A DNA stretch of 64,000 nt from Parerythrobacter lutipelagi. GTDB taxonomy: Bacteria; Pseudomonadota; Alphaproteobacteria; Sphingomonadales; Sphingomonadaceae. Of the stretch, positions 1,105 through 27,453 are shown piece after piece. The notes beneath the pieces were generated by a model, which saw only the letters and a list, made by a program, of their open reading frames with translations, was not told the origin of the DNA and searched no databases. The DNA is taken from positions 496,001 to 560,000 of the forward strand of contig NZ_SKCJ01000002.1 in NCBI RefSeq assembly GCF_005434975.1, given 5' to 3'. Made by a program: the position numbers and the translations under genes. Each line of letters starts with the position of its first letter. Position 1 is the stretch's first letter.

Positions 1105-1141
1105 TGTTGCGCAAGCGGCCTCGCATAGCCAAATAGCTGGG

Positions 1142-1393: not shown

Positions 1394-1405
1394 GATCGGC
1401 GCGCG

Positions 1406-2005: not shown

Positions 2006-2015
2006 GGTTGTACTC

Positions 2016-2101
2016 CGTCATTGCGAGCCGCCGACAGGCGGTGCGGTAATCCAGCGAGGTGCCGTGCCGCACTGGATTGCTTCGCTTCGCTCGCAATGAC
2101 G
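2016..2101. repeat. Palindromic repeat (REP-like) between recO and leuB
   Basis: The element is bounded by perfect 13-base inverted arms (CGTCATTGCGAGC at 2016-2028, GCTCGCAATGACG at 2089-2101) with a second inner pair (AATCCAG near 2048-2054, CTGGATT at 2072-2078). This sequence type resembles short interspersed palindromes I recall from many alphaproteobacterial genomes. The right end directly abuts the leuB ribosome binding site. It could fold into a long hairpin in the recO-leuB transcript. No coding potential is apparent. Confidence 0.75.
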
Positions 2102-2117
2102 AAGAAGGTGAACGGGT

Positions 2118-3176
2118 GTGAAAATTGCAATTTTTGCAGGTGACGGGATCGGTCCCGAGATCATGGCACAGGCGCTGCGGGTGCTCGATGCGCTGCGGCT
2201 GCCGGGCGCGGTCTATCTCGAAGGCGATGTGGGCGGGATTGCCTACAAACGCCACGGGCATCCGCTGCCCGAAGAAACGCTGATCAATGCGCGCGGCAGC
2301 GACGCGGTGCTGTTCGGCGCGGTGGGTGATCCCGAGTGTGACAATCTGGAACGGCACTTGCGGCCCGAACAGGCGATCCTCGGCCTGCGTTCGCAGCTCG
2401 GCCTGTTCGCCAATCTGCGACCGGCAACGATGTTTGCCGGGCTGGAGGACATGTCCAGCCTCAAGCCAGAGATCGCGCGGCAGATCGACCTTTTGATCGT
2501 GCGCGAGCTCAACGGCGATGTCTATTTCGGCGAGAAGGGCACGCGCACGCGGGACGATGGCCAGCGCGAGGGGTGGGACATGATGTCTTACGCCGAAGAT
2601 GAAGTCCGCCGCATCGCGCACACTGCATTCCGCGCGGCGCAGGGGCGGCAGAAGCGGCTGACCAGTGTGGACAAGGCCAATGTGCTGGAGACCAGCCAGC
2701 TGTGGCGCGACGTGGTGGTCGAAACCGCTGCAGATTATCCCGATGTGGCGCTCGACCATATGTATGTCGACAACGCGGCGATGCAGCTGGTGCGCGATCC
2801 GGGCCGGTTCGATGTGATTGTAACCGGTAATCTGTTCGGCGATATTCTGTCCGATCAGGCGAGCATGTGCGTCGGCTCGATCGGCCTTCTCGCCAGCGCC
2901 TCGCTGGGGGAGCGGCAAACCGCGCATGGCACCTTCGGCATGTATGAGCCGATCCACGGCACCGCGCCCGACATCGCAGGGCAAGGCAAAGCCAATCCGA
3001 TGGCAATGATCCTGTCTGCCGCAATGATGCTGCGCCACAGCTTCGGTCGCGGAGAGGATGCCGCGCGGATCGAAGCGGCTGTGGCAAGCGCGCTGGCCGC
3101 CGGAGTGCACGGCGCCGATCTGGGCGGCAGAGCCTCGACGCAGGAAATCGGTGACGCGGTGCTCGAACGGCTCTAA
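2118..3176 (+). CDS. leuB: 3-isopropylmalate dehydrogenase
   Basis: LeuB (352 residues) oxidises and decarboxylates 3-isopropylmalate to 2-oxoisocaproate with NAD in leucine biosynthesis. The N-terminal GDGIGPEIM motif, the substrate-binding [13 protein letters not shown] segment, the Lys/Asp region ([25 protein letters not shown]) and the C-terminal NAD-binding [19 protein letters not shown] are all present and the length is normal. Translation most likely starts at GTG 2118, nine bases after GAAGAAGG at 2101-2108, which itself touches the upstream palindromic repeat. leuC and leuD are not nearby, so leucine genes are dispersed here. Confidence 0.95.
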
Positions 3177-3185
3177 GTCTGCGGC

Positions 3186-4277
3186 GTGCTTCAGCTCGCC
3201 ATCATCCTGCCAACCCTCGAAGAACGCGAGAATATTGCCCCGCTGGTGCAGCGCATCGAAGCGGCGCTGGGGGCCGATGGCTGGGAAGTCGTGGTGGTCG
3301 ATGACGACAGCGCAGACGGCACCGCAGAGGAAGCGCGCAAGCTTGCGCTGACCGATCCGCGCATGCGGGTGATCCAGCGCATCGGGCGGCGCGGTCTGGC
3401 CTCAGCCGCGATCGAAGGCATGTGTGCAACTGCCGCGCCCTTCGTTGCGGTGATGGATGCCGATCACCAGCATGATCCGGCCTTGCTGCCACGGATGCTG
3501 GAGGCGGTGCAATCCAACCAGGCCGATATCGCGGTCGCCAGCCGCTTCGTCGAAGGCGGCAACGCGGCCGGGCTGGCGAGCGAACGGCGGGAGAAAGCTT
3601 CGGGCTGGGCCAATCGCATCGCGCGGCGCATCACCGGAGTTGAGCTGACCGACCCGATGAGCGGTTATTTCCTGATGCAATCCTCGCGCGCGAGGGCGCT
3701 CGCCCCGCGACTATCGGGTGTGGGGTTCAAGATCCTGCTCGATATTCTGGCGACCTCGTCTGAAAAGTTGCGGGTGAAAGAGCTACCGCTGCAATTCGCC
3801 GCGCGGCGCAGCGGCACAAGCAAGCTGGACCGTGCGGTTGCCTTCGAATTCCTGATCGGGCTGTATGAACGCATTTTCGGACGCATCATTCCGACGCGCT
3901 TTGCTTTGTTCGGCACGGTCGGCGGGTTCGGAGTCGGCGTGCACATGGCGGTGCTCGCCGTATTGTTCCGCTGGCTCGATATTGCTTTCCTTCCTGCGCA
4001 GGCGGCGGCGACATTTGCCGCGATGACATTCAACTTCTGGCTCAACAACTGGCTGACTTATCGGGACAAGCGCCTGAGAGGATTGGGGCCGGTGTTGCGC
4101 GGCTGGATTGGTTTCTGCGCGACTTGTGCGGTGGGCGCGCTGGCCAATGTCGCGATGGCGGGGTTCCTTGCGGGGCAGGGCGTTTTCTGGGCGCTTGCGG
4201 CACTCGGCGGGATCGTGATCGGCGCGGTGTGGAATTACGCCTTGTCGAGCAATTTCGTGTGGGGACGGTACAAGTGA
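3186..4277 (+). CDS. GT2 glycosyltransferase fused to GtrA membrane domain (polyprenol-phosphate sugar synthase-like)
   Basis: A 363-residue two-domain protein. Residues about 1-230 are a family 2 glycosyltransferase close to dolichol-phosphate mannose synthases, with the nucleotide-sugar motif DDDSADGT near residue 40, DADHQHDP near residue 91 and the conserved DPMSGYFLM. Residues about 235-363 form a GtrA-like domain with four membrane segments. Such fusions make a polyprenyl-phosphate sugar and may help translocate it. It starts at GTG 3186, nine bases after leuB. The polytopic PMT-type transferase encoded convergently at 4917-6191 is a plausible user of its product; that link is inference from proximity. 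Confidence 0.85.
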   Translation: MLQLAIILPTLEERENIAPLVQRIEAALGADGWEVVVVDDDSADGTAEEARKLALTDPRMRVIQRIGRRGLASAAIEGMCATAAPFVAVMDADHQHDPALLPRMLEAVQSNQADIAVASRFVEGGNAAGLASERREKASGWANRIARRITGVELTDPMSGYFLMQSSRARALAPRLSGVGFKILLDILATSSEKLRVKELPLQFAARRSGTSKLDRAVAFEFLIGLYERIFGRIIPTRFALFGTVGGFGVGVHMAVLAVLFRWLDIAFLPAQAAATFAAMTFNFWLNNWLTYRDKRLRGLGPVLRGWIGFCATCAVGALANVAMAGFLAGQGVFWALAALGGIVIGAVWNYALSSNFVWGRYK

Positions 4278-4287
4278 TCCAGGACCA

Positions 4288-4920
4288 ATGACGCGCGGCA
4301 GGCTGACTGCCGGACAGATCCGGATATTGATAGCAGCGGCCTTGTTCGCCGCCGCGAGCATATGGAACTCGCCTTATCCGGCGCTCACTCCGCTCCAGAC
4401 GATACCAACGTTCGTCACACTCGCGATGCTTGCTTTTGCCGGGCACCGGTGGGGCGTCTCCACCGCATCGCTCGCCTGCCTGTGCCTGTTCCTTGCACTG
4501 CACACAATCGGCGGACGCTATATCTATTCGTTCGTGCCCTATGACGCGTGGATCGCATCGCTGGGACTGACCACGCCGAGCGAATTGTTCGGCTGGGAGC
4601 GCAACCATTACGACCGGCTGGTCCACTTTGCCTTCGGCCTGCTGTGGTTTCCGGTGCTGAGAGAACTGCTGAACCGCATAGGGGGATTGTCGCCGCGCTG
4701 GTCGATCTACGTCGCGGTCGAAGCGGTGCTGGCGGCCAGCGCGGCGTATGAAATCTTCGAATGGTGGCTGACGCTGGTCATGGCACCGGGCAATGCCGAT
4801 GCCTACAATGGGCAGCAGGGCGACATGTGGGATGCGCAAAGGGATATGGCGCTGGCGTTCGGCGGCGCGCTGATCGCTGCGGCCATCGCAGTGCTCGCCG
4901 GCAAACGCGCGCGCACTTAG
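4288..4920 (+). CDS. DUF2238 (YjdF-like) membrane protein
   Basis: This 210-residue integral membrane protein has about five to six hydrophobic segments and the signatures of the DUF2238/YjdF family: HTIGGRYIY, ERNHYDRLVHFAFGLL, YEIFEWW and GDMWDAQRDM. The conserved His, Asp and Glu residues within the membrane region suggest a catalytic or metal-binding site, but the function of the family is unknown to me. It starts ten bases after the GT2-GtrA gene, so co-transcription is likely. Its last four bases overlap the end of the convergent PMT gene (stop codons interleaved at 4917-4920). Confidence 0.82.
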   Translation: MTRGRLTAGQIRILIAAALFAAASIWNSPYPALTPLQTIPTFVTLAMLAFAGHRWGVSTASLACLCLFLALHTIGGRYIYSFVPYDAWIASLGLTTPSELFGWERNHYDRLVHFAFGLLWFPVLRELLNRIGGLSPRWSIYVAVEAVLAASAAYEIFEWWLTLVMAPGNADAYNGQQGDMWDAQRDMALAFGGALIAAAIAVLAGKRART

Positions 4921-6191
4921 CGCCAGCCGTCGATCCAAGCCCAGTTGGTAAAGCTCATTTCGTTTGCCAGCGGCCATGCGCTGAGGATCGGGTAGAAATA
5001 AGCGAACACCAATACCGATCCGGCTAGCGGGGCAAGCACGCTCCACCGCCAGCCGCGCTGCCACAGGGCGTCGCACGCCAGTGCCAGTGCGGCGAGCAGG
5101 AAGCAGCTGGGCAGGAAATAGTGGTAGTAGAACTGGATCGGTTTGTCCGCGAGCGGCCACATGCCGAGAGCGACTGCGAAGAGCAGCACCACTGCCAGTG
5201 CGTCCCACCGGCGCTGCGCCACACCTGCCCACGCGGCCCACAGCATGGCCGGAATGCCGAGCAGCATGGTCAGCGGATTTCCCAGCAGCACCACCCCGCG
5301 CTGCGCCCCGTCGATCGGCTCGTAAAGATACCAGATCGCCCGCAAGTTGAAGAGCCAGTCGGTCCAAACGCTTTGGTACGGATGCGGTTTCACCACCGAC
5401 GCCTGAAGCCGCATGATTTCGCTGTGCAGGGCCACGAAACCGCCCGGTTCAAGCGGATTCTCCGGCGCGAAATAGGCGGGCAGGAAGGTCAGCCAATAGG
5501 CAAACAGCGGCAGAACGCCGAGCAGCAGTGCGGCTTCCCACAAGGCCATGCCGGCGACCGGAATGCCCCGCCTGCTGGTGATGAGGCGGCGGCGCCCGGC
5601 GGTCAGGCGCGCAATGAAGAAGGCCAGTCCGGGCAGCATCGCCAGAAACACGACATTCCATTTGGACGCCATTGCGAGGCCCAGCGCGACGCCTGCAACG
5701 ATCAGCCGCCAGCGCCCGGTCTCCGGCTCGCGCACCGCAGCAGCGCAGTGCCACAGCGCGAGCAGGAAGAACGCGGCCATGAATACGTCGAGCATGGCGA
5801 TCCGCGCATGGACGAAGAGCAGGAAGCCGGTGCCAAGCAGGACCCCGAAGGCAAGCGATGCAAAGCGCGAGAGGTTGGCGAACCACATCGCGCGCATCCC
5901 GGAATACAGCGCAAGTGCGCCGAACAGGGCGGGCAGAACCCGCCAGCCAAACGCATTGTCGCCGAACAGCGCGATACCCAGCGCAATCAGCTCCTTGCCC
6001 AGCATCGGATGTTCGCGGTTCGTCCAGCCGCCGGTTGTCAGCAGTTCGCGCGCTGCCGGCAGATAGTGCACCTCGTCGAACATGGGGATCGAAGGGGTGC
6101 CAATGCGCCATAGGCAAAGGGTGAGGAATCCGGCCGTCAAAAGCAGGTTCCAGCGCCAGGGGTCTACGGGAAGGTCGGCACGTCCGGACAT
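4917..6191 (-). CDS. Phospholipid carrier-dependent (PMT-family) glycosyltransferase
   Basis: A polytopic membrane protein of 424 residues resembling protein O-mannosyltransferases (GT39/GT-C fold), which transfer sugars from polyprenyl-phosphate donors outside the cytoplasmic membrane. The first external loop carries the acidic motif MFDEVHY followed by REHPMLGKELIALG, the conserved catalytic-loop region of the family, and more than ten hydrophobic segments follow. The frame is open for 66 codons upstream, but that stretch is Arg/Ser-rich with no membrane character, so the ATG at 6191 (MSGRADL) is chosen. It converges with the DUF2238 gene and probably works with the GT2-GtrA protein. Acceptor (protein or lipid) unknown. 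Confidence 0.85.
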   Translation of the reverse strand: MSGRADLPVDPWRWNLLLTAGFLTLCLWRIGTPSIPMFDEVHYLPAARELLTTGGWTNREHPMLGKELIALGIALFGDNAFGWRVLPALFGALALYSGMRAMWFANLSRFASLAFGVLLGTGFLLFVHARIAMLDVFMAAFFLLALWHCAAAVREPETGRWRLIVAGVALGLAMASKWNVVFLAMLPGLAFFIARLTAGRRRLITSRRGIPVAGMALWEAALLLGVLPLFAYWLTFLPAYFAPENPLEPGGFVALHSEIMRLQASVVKPHPYQSVWTDWLFNLRAIWYLYEPIDGAQRGVVLLGNPLTMLLGIPAMLWAAWAGVAQRRWDALAVVLLFAVALGMWPLADKPIQFYYHYFLPSCFLLAALALACDALWQRGWRWSVLAPLAGSVLVFAYFYPILSAWPLANEMSFTNWAWIDGWR

Positions 6192-6387
6192 CGGACTGGG
6201 CGTAGTCAAAGCTTCGATATGCGACAAGCCGGTTTGAATGCCGGACGGGGATTGGTTTCTGTCTCGAAATGTAAACAATCCTCTGCTAGAGGACTGCACT
6301 GAAAACAGAAAATGGTGGTCGCGCGAACGGGGGAAACACGATGCAGGTCGCGCGATTGTGCGCGCCCGCGAGGTTTGGAGGCGCGCC

Positions 6388-6591
6388 ATGTTTAGAAAGC
6401 TTGTCTGTTCTGTTTCCGGTCATTCGATCAACCGGAACCGCGTGTGGCATGACGGGCTGAACTTCCGCTGCAAATGCCAGAGCTGCGGCACACCCATGCT
6501 GCGTGACCGCAATGGCTGGCGCGAATTCGATTTCGAACAGGATGCGGCTGAACACCGTGCTAGCCACCCGGTTACAGGCAGAACCGCTTAG
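6388..6591 (+). CDS. Small cysteine-rich hypothetical protein
   Basis: A 67-residue basic protein starting at ATG 6388, with GGAG at 6377-6380 as ribosome binding site; a frame-open extension back to 6238 looks non-coding. It has Cys7, the SGH motif with His12, and a CKCQSCG cluster (Cys28, 30, 33), suggesting a small zinc-binding knuckle. The C-terminus is acidic (WREFDFEQDAAEHRA). I do not recognise a named family, though short proteins of this shape recur in the Sphingomonadales. Its stop overlaps by four bases the stop of the convergent membrane protein at 6588-6986. Confidence 0.65.
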   Translation: MFRKLVCSVSGHSINRNRVWHDGLNFRCKCQSCGTPMLRDRNGWREFDFEQDAAEHRASHPVTGRTA

Positions 6592-6986
6592 GCAGATTGC
6601 GCCGCTGCAGCCTGCCGTTCGAGCCAGAACAGCCGCGCGACCATGGCGAGCAACGCGATACTGGCCGTGAGCCCCACCGCGATGACCCAGAGCGGCACAT
6701 TCATTCCGGCTTTGCGGGCGCGCGGAACCACGAACAGCAGCGCGATCCCGACCGAGATCAGCAGATCGTACCACACCTGTACGCCCCACAGATTGGTCGA
6801 ATGGTTGTCGATCACCGGCATCACGCCTTCGGTTGCGATCGTCACGGCGGTGAAGGCCGCAAAGGCGCCGCTCAATGCTGCGGCAAAGGCGGCGCTGCCC
6901 TTCGGGTTTTTGGCGAAAGCGAGGTAGAGCACGACCGGGCCGACAACCGCAGCACCGGCAAGGAATAGGATCAGATAGGGCGACAT
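6588..6986 (-). CDS. Small membrane protein, likely target of the divergent TetR regulator
   Basis: A 132-residue protein with four hydrophobic segments (residues roughly 3-24, 33-52, 72-87, 98-117) and a conserved-looking polar loop VIDNHSTNLWGVQVWYDL between the second and third. The N-terminal Met at 6986 faces a TetR-type regulator across a 74-base gap holding two identical-type palindromic operators. That arrangement strongly suggests that it is repressed by the neighbour, although its activity is unknown. No transporter signature is visible; the size and polar loop do not match SMR efflux proteins. Confidence 0.75.
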   Translation of the reverse strand: MSPYLILFLAGAAVVGPVVLYLAFAKNPKGSAAFAAALSGAFAAFTAVTIATEGVMPVIDNHSTNLWGVQVWYDLLISVGIALLFVVPRARKAGMNVPLWVIAVGLTASIALLAMVARLFWLERQAAAAQSA

Positions 6987-7009
6987 GGCTGGTTTCTCCG
7001 CGAATCGTT

Positions 7010-7053
7010 TGTAGCAGATGCTACACTTGTAGCGCGATGTAGCACTCGCTACA
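7010..7053. promoter_or_regulatory. Twin TetR-type operators TGTAGC-N4-GCTACA
   Basis: Two copies of the palindrome TGTAGC-N4-GCTACA occur at 7010-7025 and 7038-7053, 28 bases apart, with an extra TGTAGC half-site at 7028-7033. The right copy extends outward as CTTGTAGC (7026-7033) and GCTACAAG (7048-7055). They sit between divergent genes for a membrane protein and a TetR-type regulator, and the right copy ends seven bases before the regulator start codon, overlapping its ribosome binding region (AAGG at 7053-7056). Autorepression is the simplest reading. Confidence 0.8.
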
Positions 7054-7060
7054 AGGCGTC

Positions 7061-7600
7061 ATGGCCAAGACCCGCCTTTCCCGCGAAACGCTCCTGCCCT
7101 TGCTCGCCGCGCATGTGCTCGAGAACGGGCTGAACGATGCCAGCCTGCGCCCGCTGGCCAAGGCGGCAGGGACCAGCGACCGGATGCTGATCTATCACTT
7201 CGGCAACAAGCAGGCGCTGGTTGCCGCGCTGCTCGAATATCTGGCGGCGATGTTTGCTGCCTCACTCGACAGCGCATTTCCGCCGGGACGGGCAGATACG
7301 CGGCGCGCCTGTGTCGAGCAGGTGCTGGAGATCACCGGACAGCCCGCCTTTCAGCAGTTCTTTCGTCTGTGGTGGGACATCGTCGCCGGCTGCGCAGCGG
7401 GCAATCGGGCCTACCTTCAGGCCGCGGGGTCGATCATGGATATGCTGCTGCAATGGGTGACCGACCACTTGCCCGCAGACGATCCGGATCCGCAGACCGG
7501 GGCGCGGCTGGTCCTGACCCAGATCGAAGGCGCGCAGATGCTTGCCGCCATCGGCCGCGAAGACATCGGCAAAGGCGGGCTTTCCGCGCTGGAAACTTAG
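7061..7600 (+). CDS. TetR/AcrR family transcriptional regulator
   Basis: A 179-residue regulator with the N-terminal TetR helix-turn-helix (residues about 24-50: SLRPLAKAAGTSDRMLIYHF, then GNKQALVAALLEYL). The remaining helical part forms the ligand-binding and dimerisation domain, with Trp-rich RLWWDIVAG near residue 105. The ATG at 7061 follows the second operator closely, so binding there would block its own expression. The divergent small membrane protein is the probable regulated partner. The inducer cannot be predicted from sequence. Confidence 0.88.
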   Translation: MAKTRLSRETLLPLLAAHVLENGLNDASLRPLAKAAGTSDRMLIYHFGNKQALVAALLEYLAAMFAASLDSAFPPGRADTRRACVEQVLEITGQPAFQQFFRLWWDIVAGCAAGNRAYLQAAGSIMDMLLQWVTDHLPADDPDPQTGARLVLTQIEGAQMLAAIGREDIGKGGLSALET

Positions 7601-7643
7601 CCCCGCTTGTCGCGCCACGGCTCCCCGCCTAAGCGTATCCGCC

Positions 7644-8852
7644 ATGAAGAAGACGACCGGAACCGACCGCAGTGTAACCCGCAATTGGCGCCCAGCAACG
7701 CAGGCGGTGCGCGGCGGCACCTGGCGCAGCGAACATGGCGAGACGAGCGAGGCGCTGTTCCTCACCTCTGGCTACACGTTCCATTCGGCGGGCGAAGTGG
7801 CGGATCGCTTCGCGGGCGAGGCCGAGGGCATGACTTATTCGCGCCTGCAGAACCCGACTGTCGCCATGCTGGAAGAACGCATCGCGCTGCTGGAGGGTGC
7901 GGAGGCGTGCCGCGCACAGGCCAGCGGAATGGCGGCGATGACCACCGCGCTGCTGTGCCAGCTCGAAACCGGCGATCATGTGGTCGCCGCGCGCGCCGCG
8001 TTCGGCTCGTGCCGCTGGCTGGTTGACACCCTGCTGCCCAAGTTCGGCATCGAGACCACCGTCATCGACAGCGCGGTCAACGAAGCATGGGACGCGGCGA
8101 TCCGCCCCAACACCAAGGTGTTCTTCTTCGAGACCCCGGCCAACCCGACGCTGGATATCGTCGACCTCGCGTATGTCTGCGGGCTGGCGAAGTCCCGCGG
8201 CATCACCACTGTGGTCGACAACGCCTTCGCCACCGCCGCATTGCAGCGGCCGATGGAATTCGGTGCGGATGTGATCGCCTATAGCGCGACCAAGCTGATG
8301 GACGGGCAGGGCAGGGTGCTGGCCGGCGCGGTCTGCGGCTCCGAAGAGTTTATCAATGACGTGCTGCTCCCGTTTCAACGCAACACCGGCCCGAACCTCG
8401 CGCCGTTCAACGCGTGGGTGGTTCACAAAGGCCTGGAAACGCTAAGCCTGCGCGCCCACAAACAGAGCGAAAATGCACTGGCGCTGGGCACAATGATCGA
8501 GAGCCGGGTGCCGAAAATCCTTCACCCGGGTCTCGCCAGCCATCCGCGCCACGCCCTTGCGATGCAGCAGATGGACGCCGCCGGACCGATCTTCAGCTTC
8601 GTTGTCGATGGCGGACGCGCGCAGGCCCACGCCATTCTCGATGCGCTGGAGTTGATCGACATTTCCAACAACATCGGCGACGCGCGCAGCCTGATGTGCC
8701 ACCCGGCCAGCACGACACACGCAGGGATGACGGATGAAGCGCGTGAGGAAATGGGCGTCACCGAAGGCATGCTGCGGATCAACGTCGGGCTTGAAGACAT
8801 CGAAGACCTGACCGAAGACATCGACCGCGCGCTAAGCGCAGCAGGCCTGTAG
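7644..8852 (+). CDS. metZ: O-succinylhomoserine sulfhydrylase
   Basis: MetZ (402 residues) is a PLP enzyme that makes homocysteine directly from O-succinylhomoserine and sulfide in methionine biosynthesis. Visible motifs are TYSRLQNPT, the PLP-phosphate region QASGMAAM, the pyridine-N Asp in VVDNAFAT (Asp192), the Schiff-base Lys217 in YSATKLMDGQGR, and the substrate-binding SLMCHPASTTH. The DGQGR sequence after the lysine favours MetZ over cystathionine gamma-synthase or MetY. ATG 7644 is used because the frame upstream overlaps the TetR gene. A DsbA-like isomerase gene follows after eight bases. Confidence 0.93.
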   Translation: MKKTTGTDRSVTRNWRPATQAVRGGTWRSEHGETSEALFLTSGYTFHSAGEVADRFAGEAEGMTYSRLQNPTVAMLEERIALLEGAEACRAQASGMAAMTTALLCQLETGDHVVAARAAFGSCRWLVDTLLPKFGIETTVIDSAVNEAWDAAIRPNTKVFFFETPANPTLDIVDLAYVCGLAKSRGITTVVDNAFATAALQRPMEFGADVIAYSATKLMDGQGRVLAGAVCGSEEFINDVLLPFQRNTGPNLAPFNAWVVHKGLETLSLRAHKQSENALALGTMIESRVPKILHPGLASHPRHALAMQQMDAAGPIFSFVVDGGRAQAHAILDALELIDISNNIGDARSLMCHPASTTHAGMTDEAREEMGVTEGMLRINVGLEDIEDLTEDIDRALSAAGL

Positions 8853-8860
8853 GAGGCAAT

Positions 8861-9472
8861 ATGACCAAAACCGTTGAACTGCTGTTCGATTTCGTCAGCC
8901 CAAACGCATACCTCGCGTGGTATCCGCTGCGCGAGATCATTGCGCGGCATGATGCCGAACTGCGGGTGACCCCGGTGTTCCTTGGCGGTATGCACCGCCT
9001 GACCGGCAATGCGCCGCCGTTTGTTCGCGATGCCGAGGTGAAGGGCAAGAACGATTACGCCATGCTCGAGATGAACCGGTTCATCGCGAAGCACGGGCTT
9101 GGCAAATTTACCATGAACCCGAAATTCCCGTTCAATTCGATTACGCTGCAGCGCATGCTGGTCGCGCTGGAAGGGGGCGACCGGGTGGATTTTGTCGAAG
9201 CGCTGCTGCCCGCGATCTGGGAACGGGGAATGGATGTGACCGATCTTGACGAGGTTGCCGCTGCCATCGGTGCCGCAGGTTTCGATGCGGAAAGCCTTGT
9301 CGCGCAAACACAGGACCCGGCGATCAAGCAAGCCCTGGTCGATGGCACCGACGATGCGGTCGAACGCGGCGCTTTCGGCATCCCGACATTCTTCGTCACA
9401 GGTGATGGGGCCAGTGAAATGTTCTTTGGCAAGGAACGCCTTGGCCAGATCGAGGAAGTACTGGCTGAATAA
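8861..9472 (+). CDS. DsbA-family 2-hydroxychromene-2-carboxylate isomerase-like protein
   Basis: A 203-residue thioredoxin-fold protein of the kappa-class GST/HCCA isomerase family, which isomerises aromatic ring-cleavage products in naphthalene-type degradation but is widespread without such pathways. FDFVSPNAYLAW at the N-terminus carries the catalytic-type serine in place of the DsbA CxxC, and the cis-proline loop GAFGIPTFFV with MFFGKERL follows near the C-terminus. AGGAGG before ATG 8861 is a strong ribosome binding site. It is translationally close to metZ. No other aromatic degradation gene is seen, so the true substrate is open. Confidence 0.85.
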   Translation: MTKTVELLFDFVSPNAYLAWYPLREIIARHDAELRVTPVFLGGMHRLTGNAPPFVRDAEVKGKNDYAMLEMNRFIAKHGLGKFTMNPKFPFNSITLQRMLVALEGGDRVDFVEALLPAIWERGMDVTDLDEVAAAIGAAGFDAESLVAQTQDPAIKQALVDGTDDAVERGAFGIPTFFVTGDGASEMFFGKERLGQIEEVLAE

Positions 9473-18474: not shown

Positions 18475-19266
18475 ATGAAGCGTACCCATCTGCCTTTGAA
18501 CGCCTTGCGCGTCTATGATGCCGCCGCGCGGCACCTCTCGTTCACCCGGGCGGCGGACGAGCTGGCGGTGACGCCTGCCGCTGTCGGCCAGCAGATTCGC
18601 GCGCTGGAGGATCATCTCGGCACGGTTCTGTTCCGCCGGACGAGCAAGGGGCTGGAGCTGACCGAGGAAGGTCTGGCGGGTCTCGATGCGCTGCGCGAAG
18701 GCTTCCTGAAATTCGAGGAAAGCGTGCAGTCGATGCAGGCCGGTCAAGCGTCCGACCGCTATACCATCGCTGCGCCGCGTGAATTTTATGCGCAATGGCT
18801 CGCGCCGCGTCTGGCCGATTTTCGCGCTGCCAACCCCGGCATCCGGTTCCAGCTGGTGGAGAACGAGAACGCCGACTTTACGGAAGCGAACTTGGATGTC
18901 GCGATCCGGCTGGTCGACGGGCCGGGCGAGCTGGAAGGGGTCGAACTCGCGCCCGCGCGCCGCGTGGTCGTCGCCAAGCAAGGCGCGCCCGACGAATGGA
19001 TCGACTGGCCCGGGGCGCCGCTACCCGAAGGCGCGCAGCCCACGGTGCAGGTCGGCAATGCCGGGCAGGCGCTGTCGAGCGCTGTTGCCGGGATGGGCAA
19101 GGCGATCCTGCCGTACCTGCTGGTCGAGGAATCGATCGAGGCCGGCAAGGTTGCCGTGCTGGAGGGGCCGGACGAAGGCCGCCGCGCCTACTGGCTCGTT
19201 GCCCCGTTGCCGCAATGGCGGCAGAAAAAGGTCAAGGCTCTGGTCGGCTTCCTCACCGAGGCCTGA
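18475..19266 (+). CDS. LysR family transcriptional regulator (GcvA-like)
   Basis: A 263-residue LysR regulator. The winged helix-turn-helix is at residues about 8-60, with the GcvA-type opening LNALRVYDAAARHLSFTRAA and the recognition-helix region VTPAAVGQQIRALEDHLG. The effector-binding domain follows but is shorter than the usual ~300-residue total. LysR genes usually regulate a divergent neighbour; here apaG and the regulator run in the same direction, so no target is evident. GcvA likeness is judged only from the DNA-binding part. Confidence 0.9.
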   Translation: MKRTHLPLNALRVYDAAARHLSFTRAADELAVTPAAVGQQIRALEDHLGTVLFRRTSKGLELTEEGLAGLDALREGFLKFEESVQSMQAGQASDRYTIAAPREFYAQWLAPRLADFRAANPGIRFQLVENENADFTEANLDVAIRLVDGPGELEGVELAPARRVVVAKQGAPDEWIDWPGAPLPEGAQPTVQVGNAGQALSSAVAGMGKAILPYLLVEESIEAGKVAVLEGPDEGRRAYWLVAPLPQWRQKKVKALVGFLTEA

Positions 19267-19295: not shown

Positions 19296-20429
19296 TTATT
19301 CGCCTTCGACGCGGTCCTTGGCCGTGTCCTCCTCGAATTCCTGCATCACCTCGTCGGCGGCTTTCCTGTCGGCGGAATCGGCATCTTCTGCCTCGGCATT
19401 GTTCGTGCGGGCGGTGGCCGGGTCCAGGCACAGGCGGGCGAGGATCGGGCGGTGGTCCGATCCGACCGGGCCGAGCACCTCCATCTCGCGCAGCAGGAAC
19501 TCGTCGGTTACGAACAGATGGTCGAGCGGCCAGCCGAGCCAGGTCATGTCGGCGGGGAAGGTCGCGTAGGTTCCGCGTCCGATCCGCGGGTCGAGGAACT
19601 GGCCGGTCTGCATGAACAGCTCGGTCGTGCTGGACCAGGCGACATCGTTGAAATCGCCGATCGCGATTGCGGGCATCGGCAAATCGCGGGCGTGGCGCGC
19701 GGCAACCACCAGCTCGGCGTCGCGTTCTTCGGTGTCCTGCCCCGGCTGAGGGGGTCGCGGATGCAGCGCGATCATGCGGAAGTCGAGCCCGCCCGCGGTC
19801 ATAGTGCCGAACACCGAGGGGGTGTCCTTCTGCGCCAGATCGCGGATCGCCGCGTCACGCACCGGCATGCTGGTGTAGAACGCGATGCCGTATTTGTTGT
19901 CCAGCGGCCGCTCCAGCGCGGTGTCATACTTCGCGCGCACCGGCGCCATCGCGTCGAGCCACGCCTGATCGGTTTCCATCAGCAGCACCATGTCGGCGTC
20001 GATCCGCTCGATCAGCTCCAGCGTGCGCCCGTATTCGCGATTGTCCTGCAGCACGTTGAGCGAGAGGACGGAGAAACACGCGTCCCCGCCCTCCGTATCG
20101 GCGGCAAATTTGGCGACCGTGGTCGGCGCGAGCGGGGTGTAGGGATAGATGCGGTAGACCTGCCAGACGGTCAGCGCCGCCATCGCCAGCGGCAACGCCA
20201 GCCGCCAGGTTTTCCAGCTGCCCTCTTCCCCGCGATCGAACCGCAGGATCAGCAGCCCGAGAATGACCATCGCCGCGACCAGCTGGACACGGGGGAAATC
20301 CCACATGCGGATCCACCACTGGTTGAACTCTCCGGTCGACAACAGCACGCCCGCGGTCAGCACCAGCGCCAGCAAGCGCATGCCCCACACGGCGGCGGAT
20401 TTCAGCGTGGATTTCGTCTGCGATTGCAT
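19296..20429 (-). CDS. Membrane-anchored endonuclease/exonuclease/phosphatase family protein
   Basis: A 377-residue protein with three N-terminal hydrophobic segments (about residues 14-95) and an EEP-fold catalytic domain carrying the expected metal and catalytic residues: FSVLSLNV, LLMETD, AIGDFNDV and GSDHRPILA. The active site therefore faces the periplasm. Proteins of this type hydrolyse phosphodiesters in nucleic acids, lipids or inositides; the substrate is unknown. An acidic tail of about 35 residues ends the protein. ATG 20429 is chosen over GTG 20435 because AAGGGGAG sits five bases upstream. Its upstream region holds a long inverted repeat. Confidence 0.85.
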   Translation of the reverse strand: MQSQTKSTLKSAAVWGMRLLALVLTAGVLLSTGEFNQWWIRMWDFPRVQLVAAMVILGLLILRFDRGEEGSWKTWRLALPLAMAALTVWQVYRIYPYTPLAPTTVAKFAADTEGGDACFSVLSLNVLQDNREYGRTLELIERIDADMVLLMETDQAWLDAMAPVRAKYDTALERPLDNKYGIAFYTSMPVRDAAIRDLAQKDTPSVFGTMTAGGLDFRMIALHPRPPQPGQDTEERDAELVVAARHARDLPMPAIAIGDFNDVAWSSTTELFMQTGQFLDPRIGRGTYATFPADMTWLGWPLDHLFVTDEFLLREMEVLGPVGSDHRPILARLCLDPATARTNNAEAEDADSADRKAADEVMQEFEEDTAKDRVEGE

Positions 20430-20732
20430 GGTCACTCCCCTTGGGAGAGAGACGCACGAGGCGGCGAAAGGTTGCGTGTGTTGTTTGTTTGGGCCTCAAG
20501 CGCCGGCGTTCGCGTCCGCTCACTTGGCTTTCCTCGCTTTCGCGACCTGAAGGTCGCTTCGCTGCGGGCGGGCGGTCGCCCTTGCACTCGCCTGCGGCTC
20601 GCGTTTTAGCGCTGATCCGCCATCCTCTTGGTCGCGGCAGCCAGAGCGCGACTGCGCGACGGCCGGTAGGCCGAAGCCAAGCGGGCCGGACGGCCCGCGC
20701 CCGGCGCTTGAGGCCAAAACAAACAACCCCCC
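20430..20732. other. Intergenic region holding an inverted-repeat element
   Basis: The 303 bases between the membrane EEP gene and the helix-turn-helix gene (both minus strand) are almost filled by the inverted-repeat element described separately at 20480-20727. The remaining 50 bases next to the EEP gene carry its ribosome binding site (AAGGGGAG near 20435-20442 on the minus strand). No gene is supported. Confidence 0.6.
20480..20727. repeat. 248-bp element with 27-bp terminal inverted repeats
   Basis: The left arm (20480-20506, starting GTTGTTTGTTTGGGCCTC) and right arm (20701-20727, ending GAGGCCAAAACAAACAAC) are inverted copies matching at 26 of 27 positions. Inverted similarity continues inward (CTTGGCTTTC near 20523, GAAGCCAAG near 20673). 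The interior is GC-rich and full of short palindromes and has no convincing gene. It could be a dispersed repeat, a miniature transposable element or a large hairpin. No target duplication is obvious at the ends. Confidence 0.65.
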
Positions 20733-21422
20733 TCAAATCCCCCCGCCATCGCCGAAGTCTTCGGGCGGGGGCGCTTCGTCCCAGTCGTCTTCCAGCCCCT
20801 GCGCGCGGCGGCGGGTGATGACTTTCTGGCGCAGTTCTTCCAGCTTGGCATCGATGATCGCGCGGGCCTGCGCCGGGGTGGGGCGCGTGGCCTTGTACGC
20901 CTCGACCGCCTCGCGCGCGATGCTGTCATACACCGCATTGCCCGGCTGGAGCTTCTGCACCCCGTATTTCTGCGGCAGCCGGTGCTGGAGGAGGAAGCGC
21001 AGCAGATTGTTGTCCGGCTTGTCCCACGTGCCCAGCAGCACGCCCCCGCTGACGATGGGCGTGGCGGTGCCCTGTATCGCGCGTTCGAGCGCACAATCCT
21101 CCAGCCGCTGCACACCCCGCGCCAAAGCCGCATCCCACGCGGCAGCAAACTCCTCCGCCCCGGGTTTGTGGCGGAGCTTGTAAAGCGCCTCCAGACTGCG
21201 CCCGATCGACTTCGCCGCCTGCTTGACGATGCCGGTCGCGGCGAGGGTGGCGATGAACCGGCGCTGGAGATCAGGCGTGATCGAATTCCGCCGCGGCGCG
21301 GTGTGCAGATAGGGCGCAAAGCCGAGCAACGGATCGTCCTCCTCCGGCGGCGCGGAGACGTGGGCAACGGCGGAGGTGGCCTGGCGAGGCGTGGCTCTGG
21401 TGGGGGTGGGGTGGTCCGGCAT
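20733..21422 (-). CDS. Hypothetical helix-turn-helix protein, terminase-small-subunit-like N-terminus
   Basis: A 229-residue protein starting at ATG 21422 with GGGAG seven bases upstream. Residues about 45-100 (DLQRRFIATLAATGIVKQAA, then KSIGRSLEALYKLR and AAWDAALARG) resemble the helix-turn-helix of phage terminase small subunits and related DNA-binding proteins. The middle holds VSGGVLLGTWDKPDNNLLRF and the C-terminal third is charged and probably coiled, ending in an acidic PPPEDFGDGGG tail. No large terminase or other phage gene is near, so a domesticated phage gene or an unrelated regulator are both possible. Function unknown. Confidence 0.65.
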   Translation of the reverse strand: MPDHPTPTRATPRQATSAVAHVSAPPEEDDPLLGFAPYLHTAPRRNSITPDLQRRFIATLAATGIVKQAAKSIGRSLEALYKLRHKPGAEEFAAAWDAALARGVQRLEDCALERAIQGTATPIVSGGVLLGTWDKPDNNLLRFLLQHRLPQKYGVQKLQPGNAVYDSIAREAVEAYKATRPTPAQARAIIDAKLEELRQKVITRRRAQGLEDDWDEAPPPEDFGDGGGI

Positions 21423-21794
21423 GACCACTCCCAGAATGCACAAATCGCGCGTGTAGGAAAATGGTTTGTTACGAGCGCTGATCCGGTCGGCGATTAGCCG
21501 ACCGCAAGCGCGGAGTTCAAACCAAAGTCGCAGACGGACCAAGGCCGTCTGCGAGGTCGCCCGAGCTTCTGTTAAATAGCCAAGGGCCCCTCACGTCCTC
21601 CAATCGGCGATTAGGGGCGTTGATAAAAGAATCGAAAGAAGGCGAAGTCGAATATGGATACGTGCAGGATAAAGATTCTCATCGTATCGGAACGTAGATT
21701 CGGGTGGATGATGATCCTGCGCTCGGTCGAAGGCTACTAGATCGCTGGGGATAGCCAACGTTCAGAGGAGTCGGTTCTTCAGTTTATCTTTCCC
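21423..21794. other. Intergenic region with two tight hairpins
   Basis: This 372-base gap lies between two minus-strand genes. It contains two perfect hairpins: GGTCGGC-GATTA-GCCGACC at 21485-21503, and a ten-base stem with seven-base loop at 21528-21554. The ten bases CGGCGATTAG occur twice (21489-21498 and 21605-21614). The right half (about 21620-21790) is AT-richer, like the OLD-type gene that follows. No gene was recognised. Confidence 0.6.
21528..21554 (-). terminator. Hairpin downstream of the OLD-type gene
   Basis: TCGCAGACGG (21528-21537) pairs perfectly with CCGTCTGCGA (21545-21554) around a seven-base loop. Read on the minus strand it is followed by CTTTGGTTTG. It lies about 240 bases beyond the stop of the OLD-type gene and upstream of the helix-turn-helix gene, so it probably separates the two transcripts. 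The T-run is imperfect. Confidence 0.5.
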
Positions 21795-23531
21795 TCATGT
21801 AGGGAGATCGTTCGACTTGCGGATAAATTTGACGAGTGTTTCCACCCGTTCAGTCAGATCGAGCTCAGTCATGCTGAAGCCTGCGGCGACGCATTCCTTA
21901 GCGATGCGTATCTTATTGAAGCCGCTCGTCACCTCGTCTCCGTTGCGCTTTCGGTAGTTTAATGGCTTTCCAAATCGATTGCGCGATCCCGACAGTTTGA
22001 CTGCGCTGGGGTGCGCTTTCTGGATAGCCAATTCGCGGCTTTCGGCCGGGACGTAATTCTCTATCTCTCTACCCTTTGTAACCCAAGACAGGCCCCCGCT
22101 AGCTTCGATCTGTTCGCGAACTCTGATTTTCGTTCCACGGAGCTCTTGGTGCGCCGCACCCAAATCACTATCCATAACTATAGCGACGTGGCGGTTGATA
22201 GGCAAAAGAGAAATGAATTCTTCGACGTAAGAATCCTCGACGCTCAAATGACTTAGAAGTTTTCCACCGTAAAACATTATACTATAATCAATTCCTTCTT
22301 TTACGGCAGGGTCTAACGAAGATATCCAATAGTTTAAATACAAACGATCAGAAGGGCCTTCGACCCAGATAATGCAATTAGATTGCAGCAAGTCGCTTGC
22401 ACGATAACCTAGTTCGCGACATATCTCATGCCGGCGTTGACTTTTGATAAGGGGCTCGATTGTAGCCGCACCGCCGTCACTCCTTACGCCAAAAACTTTC
22501 GCCTCTGGTGTATCTATAACTGCGGGTGAATGAGTTGTGACGAAAAACTGCCCTTCGATTTCATCCCTCAAAAAAGACATGAGTTTTCTTTGATAAGCAG
22601 GGTGGAGATGAATTTCAGGCTCTTCTAATAGAATAGTCTTTCCTTCATTTAGTACTATAAGTGAAGCTAGCATGAAGAGCTCATGAACTCCCGAGCCTAA
22701 AGTTTCTATCGGTCTTTTGTACCCACCAATTTCCACATTGATGGTTGATCGGTCATGTGGGATGTCAATTGATATATCGTCGATGAGCGTAATATCTGCG
22801 ATGAAATTCTGGAGTTTCTCGAACGACTTCCGCTTTTGCTGTTGACCATACGTCGGGTTTGAAAACTCCACTAACTGATCGATAATGTGCGTGTCGTCGT
22901 TTCCAGCATTTTCATATTCATTTGAGAAAACGCTCAGCCGCGTCTTTATTTGTCGGAACGCAGGAACATAGACGGTCGAGATCTGGTCAACGTTACCAAC
23001 TAGCAGTCTGTTTAGGACGAAGTTCATCGCTTGTTGGGTGTTTAAGTGTCCAGCGCCAGAGATTCTTGCGAGGATCTCAAGATTTCTTGCATCGACATTT
23101 GCGGTGTCTGACATTTCTGCAAATGCGCGCTGGTTAGCATTTGTGGCTTGGCGCCTGACTGGTATCCCTATGTATTGTCCATCGCTTGTTGTTTTCGGGA
23201 AGCCTCTCACGGTGGCTCTGAAGGCCTCTTGTTGCGGGCCACTGGGCGCTGTAAACTTTGAGTCTATTGTCTCGTTGTCAATCGGGACGTAGATAATGAA
23301 CTTGTCAGGGTCGGTTTGACAAAACCGAGATCGGTTCTCCGCCGATAATTGAACCTTATCACCGCGCGTGTCGGCTAGTGATGGAGCGAGATAATCACGG
23401 ATGTAACGAAGTACGTTTGATTTTCCACTGTTGTTGGAGCCTACGAATATATTAATCTTTCCAAGGGGGGCGATAGTTTGCGGCTCTTCGCCGAAATTTC
23501 TAAAATGCGATATTTCAAAGCCATGGATCAT
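21795..23531 (-). CDS. OLD-family ATPase with TOPRIM nuclease domain, orphan
   Basis: A 578-residue protein. Residues 1-340 are an SMC/RecF-like ABC ATPase: Walker A GSNNSGKS (31-38), signature-like LGSGVHE (278-284), Walker B ILLEEPEIHLHP (300-311) and H-loop TTHSP (332-336). Residues about 385-500 form a TOPRIM domain with the acidic motifs VEGPSD (390-395) and MDSD (453-456). This is the architecture of OLD (overcoming lysogenization defect) nucleases, including the phage P2 protein and GajA of Gabija. There is no helicase gene next to it, so it is a stand-alone type by context. Base composition is visibly AT-richer than its neighbours (21 G/C in the 60 bases at 22261-22320), indicating recent acquisition. 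A phage-defence role is inference. Confidence 0.85.
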   Translation of the reverse strand: MIHGFEISHFRNFGEEPQTIAPLGKINIFVGSNNSGKSNVLRYIRDYLAPSLADTRGDKVQLSAENRSRFCQTDPDKFIIYVPIDNETIDSKFTAPSGPQQEAFRATVRGFPKTTSDGQYIGIPVRRQATNANQRAFAEMSDTANVDARNLEILARISGAGHLNTQQAMNFVLNRLLVGNVDQISTVYVPAFRQIKTRLSVFSNEYENAGNDDTHIIDQLVEFSNPTYGQQQKRKSFEKLQNFIADITLIDDISIDIPHDRSTINVEIGGYKRPIETLGSGVHELFMLASLIVLNEGKTILLEEPEIHLHPAYQRKLMSFLRDEIEGQFFVTTHSPAVIDTPEAKVFGVRSDGGAATIEPLIKSQRRHEICRELGYRASDLLQSNCIIWVEGPSDRLYLNYWISSLDPAVKEGIDYSIMFYGGKLLSHLSVEDSYVEEFISLLPINRHVAIVMDSDLGAAHQELRGTKIRVREQIEASGGLSWVTKGREIENYVPAESRELAIQKAHPSAVKLSGSRNRFGKPLNYRKRNGDEVTSGFNKIRIAKECVAAGFSMTELDLTERVETLVKFIRKSNDLPT

Positions 23532-24135
23532 GATCGACGTTATGCAAGCTTACGATCATGAGGGCAATATCATGATCGGTGCTGCATGCCGAAATGAATA
23601 AATATTCAGTCCGGATACTTAACTGTAAATGCAAGAAGGTCTCATGCGCGCAATGTTCACGGGTCGCTATCGAGACAGCGCCATCCGATAGGCGGTTCCG
23701 GAAATTGCGCTTAGTTTTCGCGGTTCCACCTAAATCCTTCCGAAGACATCCTTCCCTTGACCCCCCACCCGAATCCCCCTAAGCGCCCACCAACCGAAAC
23801 GGGGCTCTGTCCCCGCCACGGTCAATAGAGCTGAACATTGCCGGTTATGTCCCGGGGTCCAGTCGCAGTTGCGGCGTGGCTCTTTTCTATTGGGGCGGTT
23901 CCTTCGGGAGGCGCTTTGGGGCTGCCGTCAAAGTAACCCGGTGTTCGTGCCGGGTGGAGTGGGTCAGTTCGCGCATCGCAAGATGTCCGCTTTGCGGGCG
24001 TTCTTGTTTAGCTGGACCCCGGATCAAGTCCGGGGTGACGGCACGGGGCGCGACCAACTCTCTCCATCCGGTATCGTGGCGCCATCAACGCCCTGGTCCA
24101 TTCGGGCCGGGCACACGGTGAAGAGAAAGAATTCT
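23532..24135. other. Intergenic region upstream of the str operon
   Basis: These 604 bases separate the AT-rich nuclease gene from rpsL. The first 150 bases share the low GC of the nuclease gene and carry three copies of ATCATGA-type palindromic sequence (23526-23576), probably its promoter area. From about 23760 the composition returns to the genomic norm. A hairpin ACCCGG/CCGGGT lies at 23936-23955, and a palindromic repeat at 24011-24041 has an inverted partial match CGGGGTCCAG at 23851-23860. The rpsL promoter must be in the right half but no certain -35/-10 was identified. Confidence 0.55.
24011..24041. repeat. Palindromic repeat upstream of rpsL
   Basis: ACCCCGGA at 24015-24022 and TCCGGGGT at 24028-24035 are perfect inverted arms around TCAAG, within CTGGACCCCGGATCAAG and the following TCCGGGGTGACG. 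This resembles a very common short interspersed palindrome that I recall from alphaproteobacterial genomes. The reverse complement of its left end also occurs at 23851-23860, so a second degenerate copy or a 190-base composite element is possible. Confidence 0.6.
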
Positions 24136-24507
24136 ATGCCGACGATCAACCAGCTGGTCCGCAAGGGCCGCACCCCGCAGAAGGCCAAGTCCAAGGTCCC
24201 TGCGATGGAAGCGAACCCGCAGAAGCGCGGCGTTTGCACCCGCGTCTATACGACGACCCCGAAAAAGCCGAACTCGGCGCTGCGTAAGGTTGCCAAGGTT
24301 CGCCTGACCAACCAGCGCGAAGTCATCTCCTACATCCCGGGTGAGGGCCACAACCTGCAAGAGCACAGCGTTGTCCTGATCCGCGGCGGCCGTGTGCGCG
24401 ACCTTCCCGGTGTGCGTTACCACGTGCTGCGCGGCGTGCTCGACACGCAGGGTGTCAAGGACCGCCGCAAGAGCCGTTCGAAGTACGGCGCGAAACGCCC
24501 GAAATAA
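24136..24507 (+). CDS. rpsL: 30S ribosomal protein S12
   Basis: S12 (123 residues) sits at the decoding centre and controls translational accuracy. The sequence is canonical: [11 protein letters not shown] at the start, the loop [18 protein letters not shown] with Lys at the classical streptomycin position, [20 protein letters not shown] with the second resistance-related loop, and [10 protein letters not shown] at the end. The streptomycin-sensitive form appears to be present (KPNS). ATG 24136 gives the universal length; the longer open frame upstream is not coding. First gene of the str operon. Confidence 0.98.
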
Positions 24508-24799
24508 GGAGTCTTTGTTTGGTGCGGTTGTCACGTCCGTGACAACCTCGGTGCCAGCCCGTCTCCCCCTCCCAACCACCCGATCATTGTCCGAACCAGT
24601 ATCGGATGGCCGGGAGGCGGAGCCGGACAGGCCCCACGCCAGAGAAGATTGAGTTTCACGCGGATTTAGCACGTTCCCCCACCCGGCTACCCCCAAGCGG
24701 TAGAATTTGGGTGGCCGGCCAAAAAGCCGGAAACACGGAGCGGGCTGGAGCCGCAAGGCACCACGGAGGTGGTGCCGCACTCCGAAGGAGTTTTGAAAA
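24508..24799 (+). promoter_or_regulatory. Structured rpsL-rpsG intercistronic region
   Basis: A 292-base spacer inside the str operon with no open gene. It contains a perfect ten-base inverted pair GGTTGTCACG/CGTGACAACC (24526-24547) and, just before rpsG, a perfect eight-base stem GGCACCAC/GTGGTGCC with loop GGAG (24757-24776), followed by the rpsG ribosome binding site GAAGGAG at 24784-24790. In Escherichia coli the S12-S7 spacer binds S7 for feedback control; an analogous role here is inference. Confidence 0.55.
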
Positions 24800-25270
24800 A
24801 TGTCACGTCGTCGTCGTCCCGAGAAGCGGGAAATCCTGCCCGATCCCAAGTTTGGTGATCAGGTTCTGTCGAAGTTCATGAACAACCTCATGCTCGACGG
24901 TAAGAAGTCCGTTGCCGAGCGCATCGTCTATGGCGCGCTTGAAACGGTCGAGAACAAGGCCAAGGCCGATCCGATCCAGCTGTTCCATGATGCGCTGAAC
25001 AACATCAAGCCGCAGGTCGAAGTGCGCAGCCGCCGTGTCGGTGGTGCCACGTATCAGGTGCCGGTCGAGGTTCGCCCCGAGCGTGCCCAGGCGCTGGCGA
25101 TCCGCTGGCTGATCTCGGCCGCGCGTGGCCGGGCTGAAACCACCATGGCGGCCCGCCTGTCGGGCGAGCTGATGGATGCGTCGAACAATCGCGGCAACGC
25201 GGTCAAGAAGCGCGAAGACAGCCACCGCATGGCGGAAGCCAACCGCGCGTTCAGCCACTACCGCTGGTAG
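24800..25270 (+). CDS. rpsG: 30S ribosomal protein S7
   Basis: S7 (156 residues) nucleates assembly of the 30S head by binding the 3' domain of 16S rRNA. The sequence is canonical throughout: [58 protein letters not shown] and [12 protein letters not shown]. Length is normal. A strong ribosome binding site precedes ATG 24800 after a structured 292-base spacer that may mediate autoregulation. Second gene of the str operon. Confidence 0.98.
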
Positions 25271-25356
25271 GGTTGGCGCCGGTCTTCTGATCGTCACAAT
25301 CGTAACTATATGGGGGTCGGCCCAGTGCCACCCCCAGACCACACGAGGAATTCCAC

Positions 25357-27453
<2,097 letters not shown>

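Follow-up and report, generated by a model that had tools for sequence, protein, structure and literature searches.

The 64,000-nt stretch of the Parerythrobacter lutipelagi genome analyzed here (contig NZ_SKCJ01000002.1, positions 496,001 to 560,000; hereafter the window) carries an OLD-type nuclease gene at 21795-23531, with an ATG start and a product of 578 amino acids (aa). The open reading frame (ORF) lies on the minus strand; the plus strand of this interval contains many stop codons. It is the sole ORF of at least 110 aa between a conserved gene at 20733-21542 (minus strand; hereafter the flank gene) and rpsL, the first gene of the str operon. GC content of the OLD gene is 0.467, and 0.480 at third codon positions, compared to 0.607 for the whole window, and it drops to 0.43-0.55 in 500-bp steps across approximately 21.5-24.0 kb. 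A preliminary description of this DNA had reported a 578-residue ATPase-TOPRIM ORF at 21795-23531, positioned its Walker A, Walker B, H-loop, and TOPRIM motifs, and called the gene much richer in AT than its surroundings. All three statements were reproduced when re-derived, with the minus strand as an addition. The gene was then characterized by ORF calling, family searches, structure models, and alignment.

The protein divides into an SMC/ABC-type ATPase (residues ~1-377) and a TOPRIM domain (~384-578). The ATPase contains a Walker A motif (GSNNSGKS, 31-38), a Walker B motif (300-311), and an H-loop (THSP, 333-336), and the TOPRIM domain contains VEGPSD (390-395) and MDSD (453-456). Pfam searches matched AAA_21 (3.5e-23), AAA_15 (7.7e-19), and SMC_N (1.4e-9, slightly below its own cut-off), with a weak match to OLD-like_TOPRIM (E 0.09). 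A scan of genome contigs returned 98 relatives, the best 80 of which were 30-43% identical over the best segment and had record titles that include Proteobacteria, Bacteroidota, Cyanobacteria, Planctomycetota, and Actinomycetota. In an alignment of 81 members, window protein included, K37 was present in 78 (three gaps), E303, E304, E306, and H334 were each present in all 81, and T333 and S335 of the H-loop were likewise kept in 78-81. The TOPRIM residues were similarly retained: E391, D456, and E491 in 81 members, D454 in 80 (one V), and D395 in 79 (two E), such that the loss of acidic residues the preliminary description had named as counterevidence was not observed. Near-invariant motifs of the subfamily were WVEGPSDR, FYGG, DSD, and GREIENY (residues 487-493). 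The protein thus has both hallmarks of OLD proteins, an N-terminal ATPase of the ABC/SMC type that carries both Walker motifs and the H-loop, and a C-terminal TOPRIM domain with conserved acidic metal-binding residues. Comparison with OLD profiles and defense models, a check proposed earlier, was positive in part: OLD, GajA, and AriA models were matched, although partially, and the PADLOC models AriA (top by E-value), NsnB, AbiLi, and GajA aligned mainly with the ATPase half.

The full-length structure model had a predicted local distance difference test (pLDDT) score of 79.6. Its first Foldseek row was a GajA chain, and VIA-align related residues 1-377 to SMC heads and PtuA with Z scores up to 16.9. 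Because the ATPase domain filled the match list, this search was uninformative on the TOPRIM domain, and the TOPRIM part was therefore modelled (pLDDT 88.8) and searched alone. When Foldseek's own candidates were re-scored with VIA-align, which is the source of all OLD fold rows, the top five were all OLD C-terminal regions (root-mean-square deviation (rmsd) 3.2-3.6, 137-170 aligned residues), with Z scores of 11.3 for 6nk8 (rmsd 3.5, 170 aligned), 11.1 for 6njw, 11.0 for 6njv, and 10.5 for both 6njx and 6p74. Lower rows included GajA (8.5), a chain of a PARIS complex (8.2), and retron Eco2 (8.0). This ranking of the predicted TOPRIM fold places the protein in the OLD family. Together, family searches, residue conservation, and predicted fold back the earlier assignment to the OLD-type ATPase/TOPRIM nucleases, an already known family to which the protein adds a new member.

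We surveyed neighboring genes within 4 kb on each side of 80 homologous loci. The 576 ORFs of at least 90 aa formed 533 BLAST clusters, the largest of which occurred in 5 of 80 loci; some contigs were short, and partners that are strongly diverged or lie off a contig might go unnoticed in such clusters. As no neighbor cluster was present in more than five loci and the window gene is the lone ORF of at least 110 aa in its slot, its context assigns it to Class 1 of the OLDs. The available excerpt of PMC10568477 describes Class 1 as isolated single genes lacking a helicase or retron partner, and the window gene has neither. The preliminary description, in which the gene stood alone without a helicase or methylase, agrees with these results.

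The OLD gene occupies a variable slot (21452-23754) that was delimited by flank alignments and a gap survey, and that extends from the left motif TGTAGGAAAATGG at 21452 to the -35-like element CCTTGACC at 23755. The right edge was sharp in a 14-slot alignment, in which conservation starts at the -35-like element and continues into a leader with GAGCTGAACATTG, located at 23828 in the window. Judging from its sequence, this promoter-like region and conserved str leader (23755-24135, plus strand) would have promoter activity. When one mismatch was allowed, the leader GAGCTGAACATTG was found in every one of the other slots (77 of 77) as well as in the window. On the left, TGTAGGAAAATG is exact at 21452 and was present with up to two mismatches in 63 of 77 other slots, where by our own arithmetic approximately 9 of 77 would be expected by chance; the matches in L146 and L177 lie away from the left edge. 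Apart from its use as an edge, the str leader combines the near-invariant GAGCTGAACATTG with a GTCAAAGTAAYCCGG stretch ahead of rpsL and could be an RNA leader element. An Rfam search of window positions 20000-25500, the sole noncoding RNA search made, gave no match.

Sequence conservation of the flank gene begins near 21425, which is probably its real start. In an orthologue search (E<=1e-33), the gene was found in 87 of 397 family genomes and 26 of 96 genera. It had no Pfam match (E<=0.1) and no match in a phage collection by tblastn, and in the PDB a single-sequence search found nothing and a profile search gave one chance row (E 1.6). A candidate label for this gene, terminase small subunit or helix-turn-helix protein, was supported by neither Pfam, the PDB, nor the phage collection.

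To describe the slot across the family, we collected the flank-gene neighborhoods of 86 of the 87 genomes with this gene, including our own window and leaving out G155 (very short contig), together with nine further rpsL loci. These counts ignore kinship among genomes. Both the flank gene and rpsL were present at 78 of the 95 loci, while 10 had rpsL but lacked the flank gene, two of them on contigs that were short or broken, and another 7 had the flank gene with rpsL not in the stretch. The gap between the two genes at the 78 loci had a median of 2,825 bp (range 573-8,936) and exceeded 1 kb in 76; L154 (573 bp) and L195 (694 bp) were near-empty. An ORF of at least 150 aa with GC <=0.58 lay in the slot in 67 of 78, and a GC dip upstream of rpsL (600 bp, at least 0.10 below rpsL-rpsG) was seen at 62 of the 78 loci that have the flank gene, compared to 1 of 8 that lack it. 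The 184 gap ORFs of at least 110 aa fell into 156 clusters.

A tblastn search of the other 77 slots with the window OLD protein found no close relative, and weak ATPase similarity in L193 and L191. The two same-genus slots held other cargo: that of G001 (L109) contained a 622-aa protein of unknown type and further ORFs, and that of G002 (L110) a methylase and one more ORF. These two results support the recent acquisition that had been proposed earlier. The gene was not found at the same locus in all relatives with ancestral base composition; instead, comparison of presence and absence, as had been suggested, revealed alternative cassettes in its place. The OLD gene is one of many alternative cassettes at a site that, by the flank gene, spans 26 of 96 genera.

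We next asked what these cassettes encode by scanning 47 str slots with PADLOC. Seven slots were scanned with one or two ORFs (two each in L110, L112, and L114; one each in L109, L115, L116, and L118, that of L116 being GC-rich), and the remaining 40 were represented by the longest AT-rich ORF each, with second genes outside the scan. Eight slots were left out as 25-88% identical to another (L111, L117, L142, L155, L174, L179, L185, and L199), and the rest of the 78 included the window gene, L113 (Pfam only), and ten slots without an ORF of at least 150 aa at GC <=0.58. A match at 1e-8 or better was obtained for 24 of 47 scanned slots, compared to 0 of 48 window ORFs, a control that omits the OLD gene and in which ORFs judged spurious were swapped for overlapping genes.

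The matches covered a wide range of systems. They comprised type II methylases (L110, L145, L163), a type I-like methylase-specificity fusion (L133), a CBASS cyclase with a Cap15 effector (L112; Cap15 from Pfam), a Helicase with DUF2290 (L114), AAA ATPases (L115, L187), Drt6/Drt4 (L118), a UG36 reverse transcriptase (L137), a retron VI reverse transcriptase (L134), PD-Lambda-5 (L136), PDC-S20 (L140), PDC-S60 in part (L132), ThsB (L143, L161), ThsA (L149), NsnA (L146), PDC-M66B (L148), PDC-S49 (L159), HEC-01 (L167), AriAB (L191), and Old (L193). A phospholipase effector in L130 was marginal (8.1e-9) and was counted as a match. Very strong matches included ThsA (8e-183), RT_UG36 (7e-168), HEC-01A (9e-149), and the CBASS cyclase (5e-136), and the Helicase of Helicase-DUF2290 scored 1011 bits. 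We are highly confident that the slot is a variable, defense-rich site: conserved core genes flank variable defense cargo, the arrangement of a core defense hotspot. This cargo may protect against phage.

The same OLD subfamily occupies the slot in a second species. Erythrobacter longus DSM 6997 (L083) has the order LysR, flank gene, OLD, and rpsL, with a flank gene 54% identical over residues 49-214. Its OLD gene has the opposite orientation to that of the window and its product is 33% identical. When the 80 relatives were ranked by their distance from the window protein in a FastTree phylogeny, the E. longus protein came 34th. The tip closest to the window protein was a homologue from G027 (support 0.996). 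The G027 gene lies elsewhere in its genome, and the str slot of G027 holds Helicase-DUF2290. Because the two slot genes are distant OLDs on opposite strands, the slot has most likely captured this subfamily on two or more occasions.

Comparison of slots also bore on how cassettes might move. A second copy of the str leader was found inside 5 of 77 slots (L109, L148, L157, L177, and L187), as if cassettes had come in with flanking str DNA or had been stacked. L110 and L111 carry methylases that are 88% identical, compared to 70% for the flank gene and 94-100% for rpsL, rpsG, and fusA, and in several other slot pairs the cargo was far less alike (25-34%) than the flank gene. A tRNA attachment site was rejected as a candidate, since the window contains no tRNA. 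An integrase, transposon, or satellite acting site-specifically might deliver the cassettes by recognizing the left motif or the str leader, with a minor role for homologous recombination. The sharp right edge, the presence of TGTAGGAAAATG in far more slots than chance predicts, and a second copy of the left motif in some slots, such as L111 and L160, would suit such an element. Nevertheless, no terminal direct or inverted repeats spanning the window slot were found, this slot, with the OLD gene as its one ORF of at least 110 aa, has no room for an integrase (recombinases were not looked for in other slots), and near-complete occupancy is unlike the landing site of one mobile element. Site-specific entry is therefore unlikely in our view, and homologous recombination in the flanks would most likely be the exchange route.

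Collectively, these findings make it likely that the window gene encodes a single-gene defense nuclease of the OLD family and is the present occupant of a single-cassette defense slot common to many genera of its family. A defense function of the protein is itself probable, and the anti-phage role suggested in the preliminary description is now backed because the same slot in relatives holds defense genes. The SMC-like ATPase could act as sensor and switch, such that a phage cue would lead it to release the two-metal TOPRIM nuclease, which would then cut phage DNA or host tRNA and stop the infection. Foreign AT-rich cassettes would enter the slot and be replaced when homologous recombination takes place in its flanks, where some of the genome's most highly conserved DNA is found.

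Several observations weigh against this interpretation. At the protein level, Foldseek returned no match at E<=0.001 for the TOPRIM model alone, Pfam OLD-like_TOPRIM was matched at E<=0.01 by 18 of 42 members, and full-length PADLOC and NCBIfam models matched partially, those of NCBIfam far under their cut-offs. According to the available part of PMC13261556, the TOPRIM domain of E. coli YbjD, a Class 1 OLD, is dispensable and a knockout of ybjD left plaque assays unchanged, and the available part of PMC12796447 presents the archaeal OLD Cran1 as serving the cell cycle and apparently not defense. At the slot level, 23 of 47 scanned slots had no PADLOC match, and the control was one window of mostly GC-rich core ORFs, unmatched for AT content and accessory status. 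Eleven slots with AT-rich ORFs lay outside the scan (L169, L170, L172, L173, L175-L178, L180, L181, and L198), and the repeated leader was long in L109 and L177 alone (226-235 nt), with 40-86 nt in the other three.

Since some OLD proteins act outside defense, as the excerpt of PMC12796447 indicates for Cran1, the window protein could serve housekeeping or DNA repair, in a slot that tolerates any insertion. The cargo of a few slots, L116 (GGDEF/EAL-like by eye) as well as L113, L117, and L174 (LuxR-type cassettes), does not resemble defense genes, which would fit this possibility. However, when 58 further genomes from the genus and family (G001-G058) were searched, both same-genus genomes lacked a match. 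G027 alone aligned end to end (45%), G010 aligned over residues 186-574 (39%), and all remaining matches were short stretches of the ATPase. This patchy presence means that the OLD gene is not core, and together with the richness of the slot in defense genes (24/47 vs 0/48 in the control), it makes a housekeeping role improbable. The composition of the control and the roughly half of scanned slots without a match would also be consistent with a general accessory landing site, where PADLOC enrichment would arise as AT-rich accessory genes often look defense-like. Against this, many matches were full-length, very strong, and drawn from distinct systems, and two-gene systems were complete in L112 (cyclase and Cap15) and L114 (Helicase and DUF2290); we give this explanation little credence. 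A defense nuclease in a defense slot remains our preferred reading of the locus.

Sequence searches identified six paralogues of the flank gene in this genome, and two of them border further candidate slots. At L209 (G000:C2:716000-734000), an AT-rich 1042-aa ORF (4734-7862) lies between lepA and a paralogue and holds the one RVT_1 (reverse transcriptase) match of the genome. At L211 (G000:C2:575000-592000), a 488-aa ORF (6457-7923) between uvrA and another paralogue holds the one SEFIR match of the genome. We examined 25 paralogue loci, five of our own six plus 20 from relatives, which were mostly stronger matches and not a random sample. A GC dip of at least 0.10 within 4.5 kb on one side was seen in 22 of 25 (not in L210, L213, or L228), compared to 1 of 20 control loci at round coordinates in four genomes. 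In all ten loci with lepA beside the paralogue, the dip was on the lepA side, although one of them (L221) had no ORF of at least 140 aa listed there. L215 contains a HEC-01-like pair 51% and 36% identical to the str-slot cargo of L167, and L218 a methylase pair 53% and 40% identical to that of L163, and several slots may draw on a single pool of genes; the PADLOC tally above covers str slots and not lepA or uvrA cargo. As a speculative idea that we consider unlikely, the flank-gene family could be part of the exchange machinery and more than a passive landmark: a DNA-binding and perhaps terminase-small-subunit-derived protein that marks single-cassette slots at rpsL, lepA, and uvrA and helps adjacent defense cassettes to be captured, packaged, or passed between species. 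If so, the chromosome would contain a multi-slot magazine set aside for immunity, in which the OLD gene would be a single round.

Other genes and cassettes were recorded around the window slot and in its counterparts. Downstream of the slot on the plus strand lie rpsL (24136-24507; ribosomal protein S12), an ORF at 24800-25270 that we take to be rpsG, and fusA (25357-27453; elongation factor G), with rpsL and fusA named by PDB matches; fusA was 86% identical to that of E. longus, 84% to Sphingopyxis H050, and 82% to Sphingomonas CFBP 8760, identities by which we assign the family to the Sphingomonadales. Beyond the flank gene, on the far side from the slot, a LysR-type regulator (18475-19266, plus strand) was identified by Pfam search and locus comparison. 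Between LysR and the flank gene is an endonuclease/exonuclease/phosphatase gene (19296-20435), which is absent from L110 and L111, as the LysR-flank interval there is merely ~0.5-0.6 kb. Among other slots, the 622-aa protein of L109 (L109:2329-4194, minus strand) is AT-rich and multi-pass membrane-like by eye, had no Pfam or PADLOC match, and is a candidate new defense gene. At 8.9 kb, L176 is unusually long, and it holds a 2009-aa ORF whose GC is normal. L113, L117, and L174 share a cassette in which a LuxR-type regulator, matched by Pfam GerE in L113, is among three to four small genes; it was not recognized as defense.

The two conserved flanks make the slot easy to locate, and most related species sampled hold a different small cassette there. 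The unrecognized slots in the PADLOC scan provide a short list of candidate new defense systems, and the flank-gene paralogues offer a testable handle on the origin of such slots. The available part of PMC10250203 leaves open how common core defense hotspots are in other clades. The slot is such a hotspot in a different bacterial class, and its small size suits direct study of cassette replacement. We found no description of it in the accessible portions of the open-licence PMC literature, a search that does not establish its absence from print.

The closest known systems include the Class 1 OLDs (P2 Old, Thermus scotoductus OLD, and E. coli YbjD/OldB). The window gene shares with them a single-gene organization and a product in which an ABC/SMC-type ATPase precedes a TOPRIM domain with acidic metal-binding residues. 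Unlike them, it belongs to its own subfamily with partial matches to OLD, GajA, and AriA models; its GREIENY motif is known from the subfamily alignment. Induced expression of YbjD has an anti-phage effect according to the excerpt of PMC13261556, which also cites tRNA cutting by P2 Old. Gabija GajA (Class 2 OLD) has the same domain order and gave the first full-length Foldseek row and a TOPRIM Z of 8.5. However, Gabija requires an adjacent GajB (UvrD-like helicase), whereas the window gene adjoins the flank gene and rpsL and its family has no recurrent neighbor, and we rejected membership. Class 3 (retron), which is defined by a neighboring reverse transcriptase and ncRNA, was also rejected, as there is no adjacent reverse transcriptase, Rfam gave no ncRNA match, and the only RVT_1 match of the genome (G000:C2:721312) is ~0.2 Mb away. 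PARIS (AriA/AriB and AriAB fusions) likewise combines an ATPase with TOPRIM, and AriA was the top PADLOC model by E-value. The TOPRIM domain scored higher against OLD (Z 11.3) than against PARIS, although the PARIS complex 8ux9 is represented among the fold rows by a chain of 306 residues, presumably AriB (Z 8.2). DUF4435, the TOPRIM effector domain expected of AriB, was not matched (E<=0.01) by any of 42 members, whose matches spanned 12 Pfam families.

At the level of the slot, the P2 and P4 prophage defense hotspots of E. coli are similar in that one defense module is swapped at a fixed place. Both are located on prophages or satellites, whereas the window slot lies between chromosomal genes. 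In the available excerpt of PMC10568477, the P2 old locus is itself a swap site for defense modules. The core defense hotspots cDHS1 and cDHS2 of Pseudomonas aeruginosa, as described in the available part of PMC10250203, are alike in having core genes that flank variable defense genes, in being nearly always occupied, and in showing no obvious single mobilizing mechanism. These hotspots are described as additive and are larger (medians of 26 and 6 kb), compared to a median of 2.8 kb for the window slot, which is of a replacement kind, extends across genera, and has flank-gene paralogues that border further such places. We regard the site as a novel form of core defense hotspot that is small, mostly single-cassette, cross-genus, and nearly always filled.

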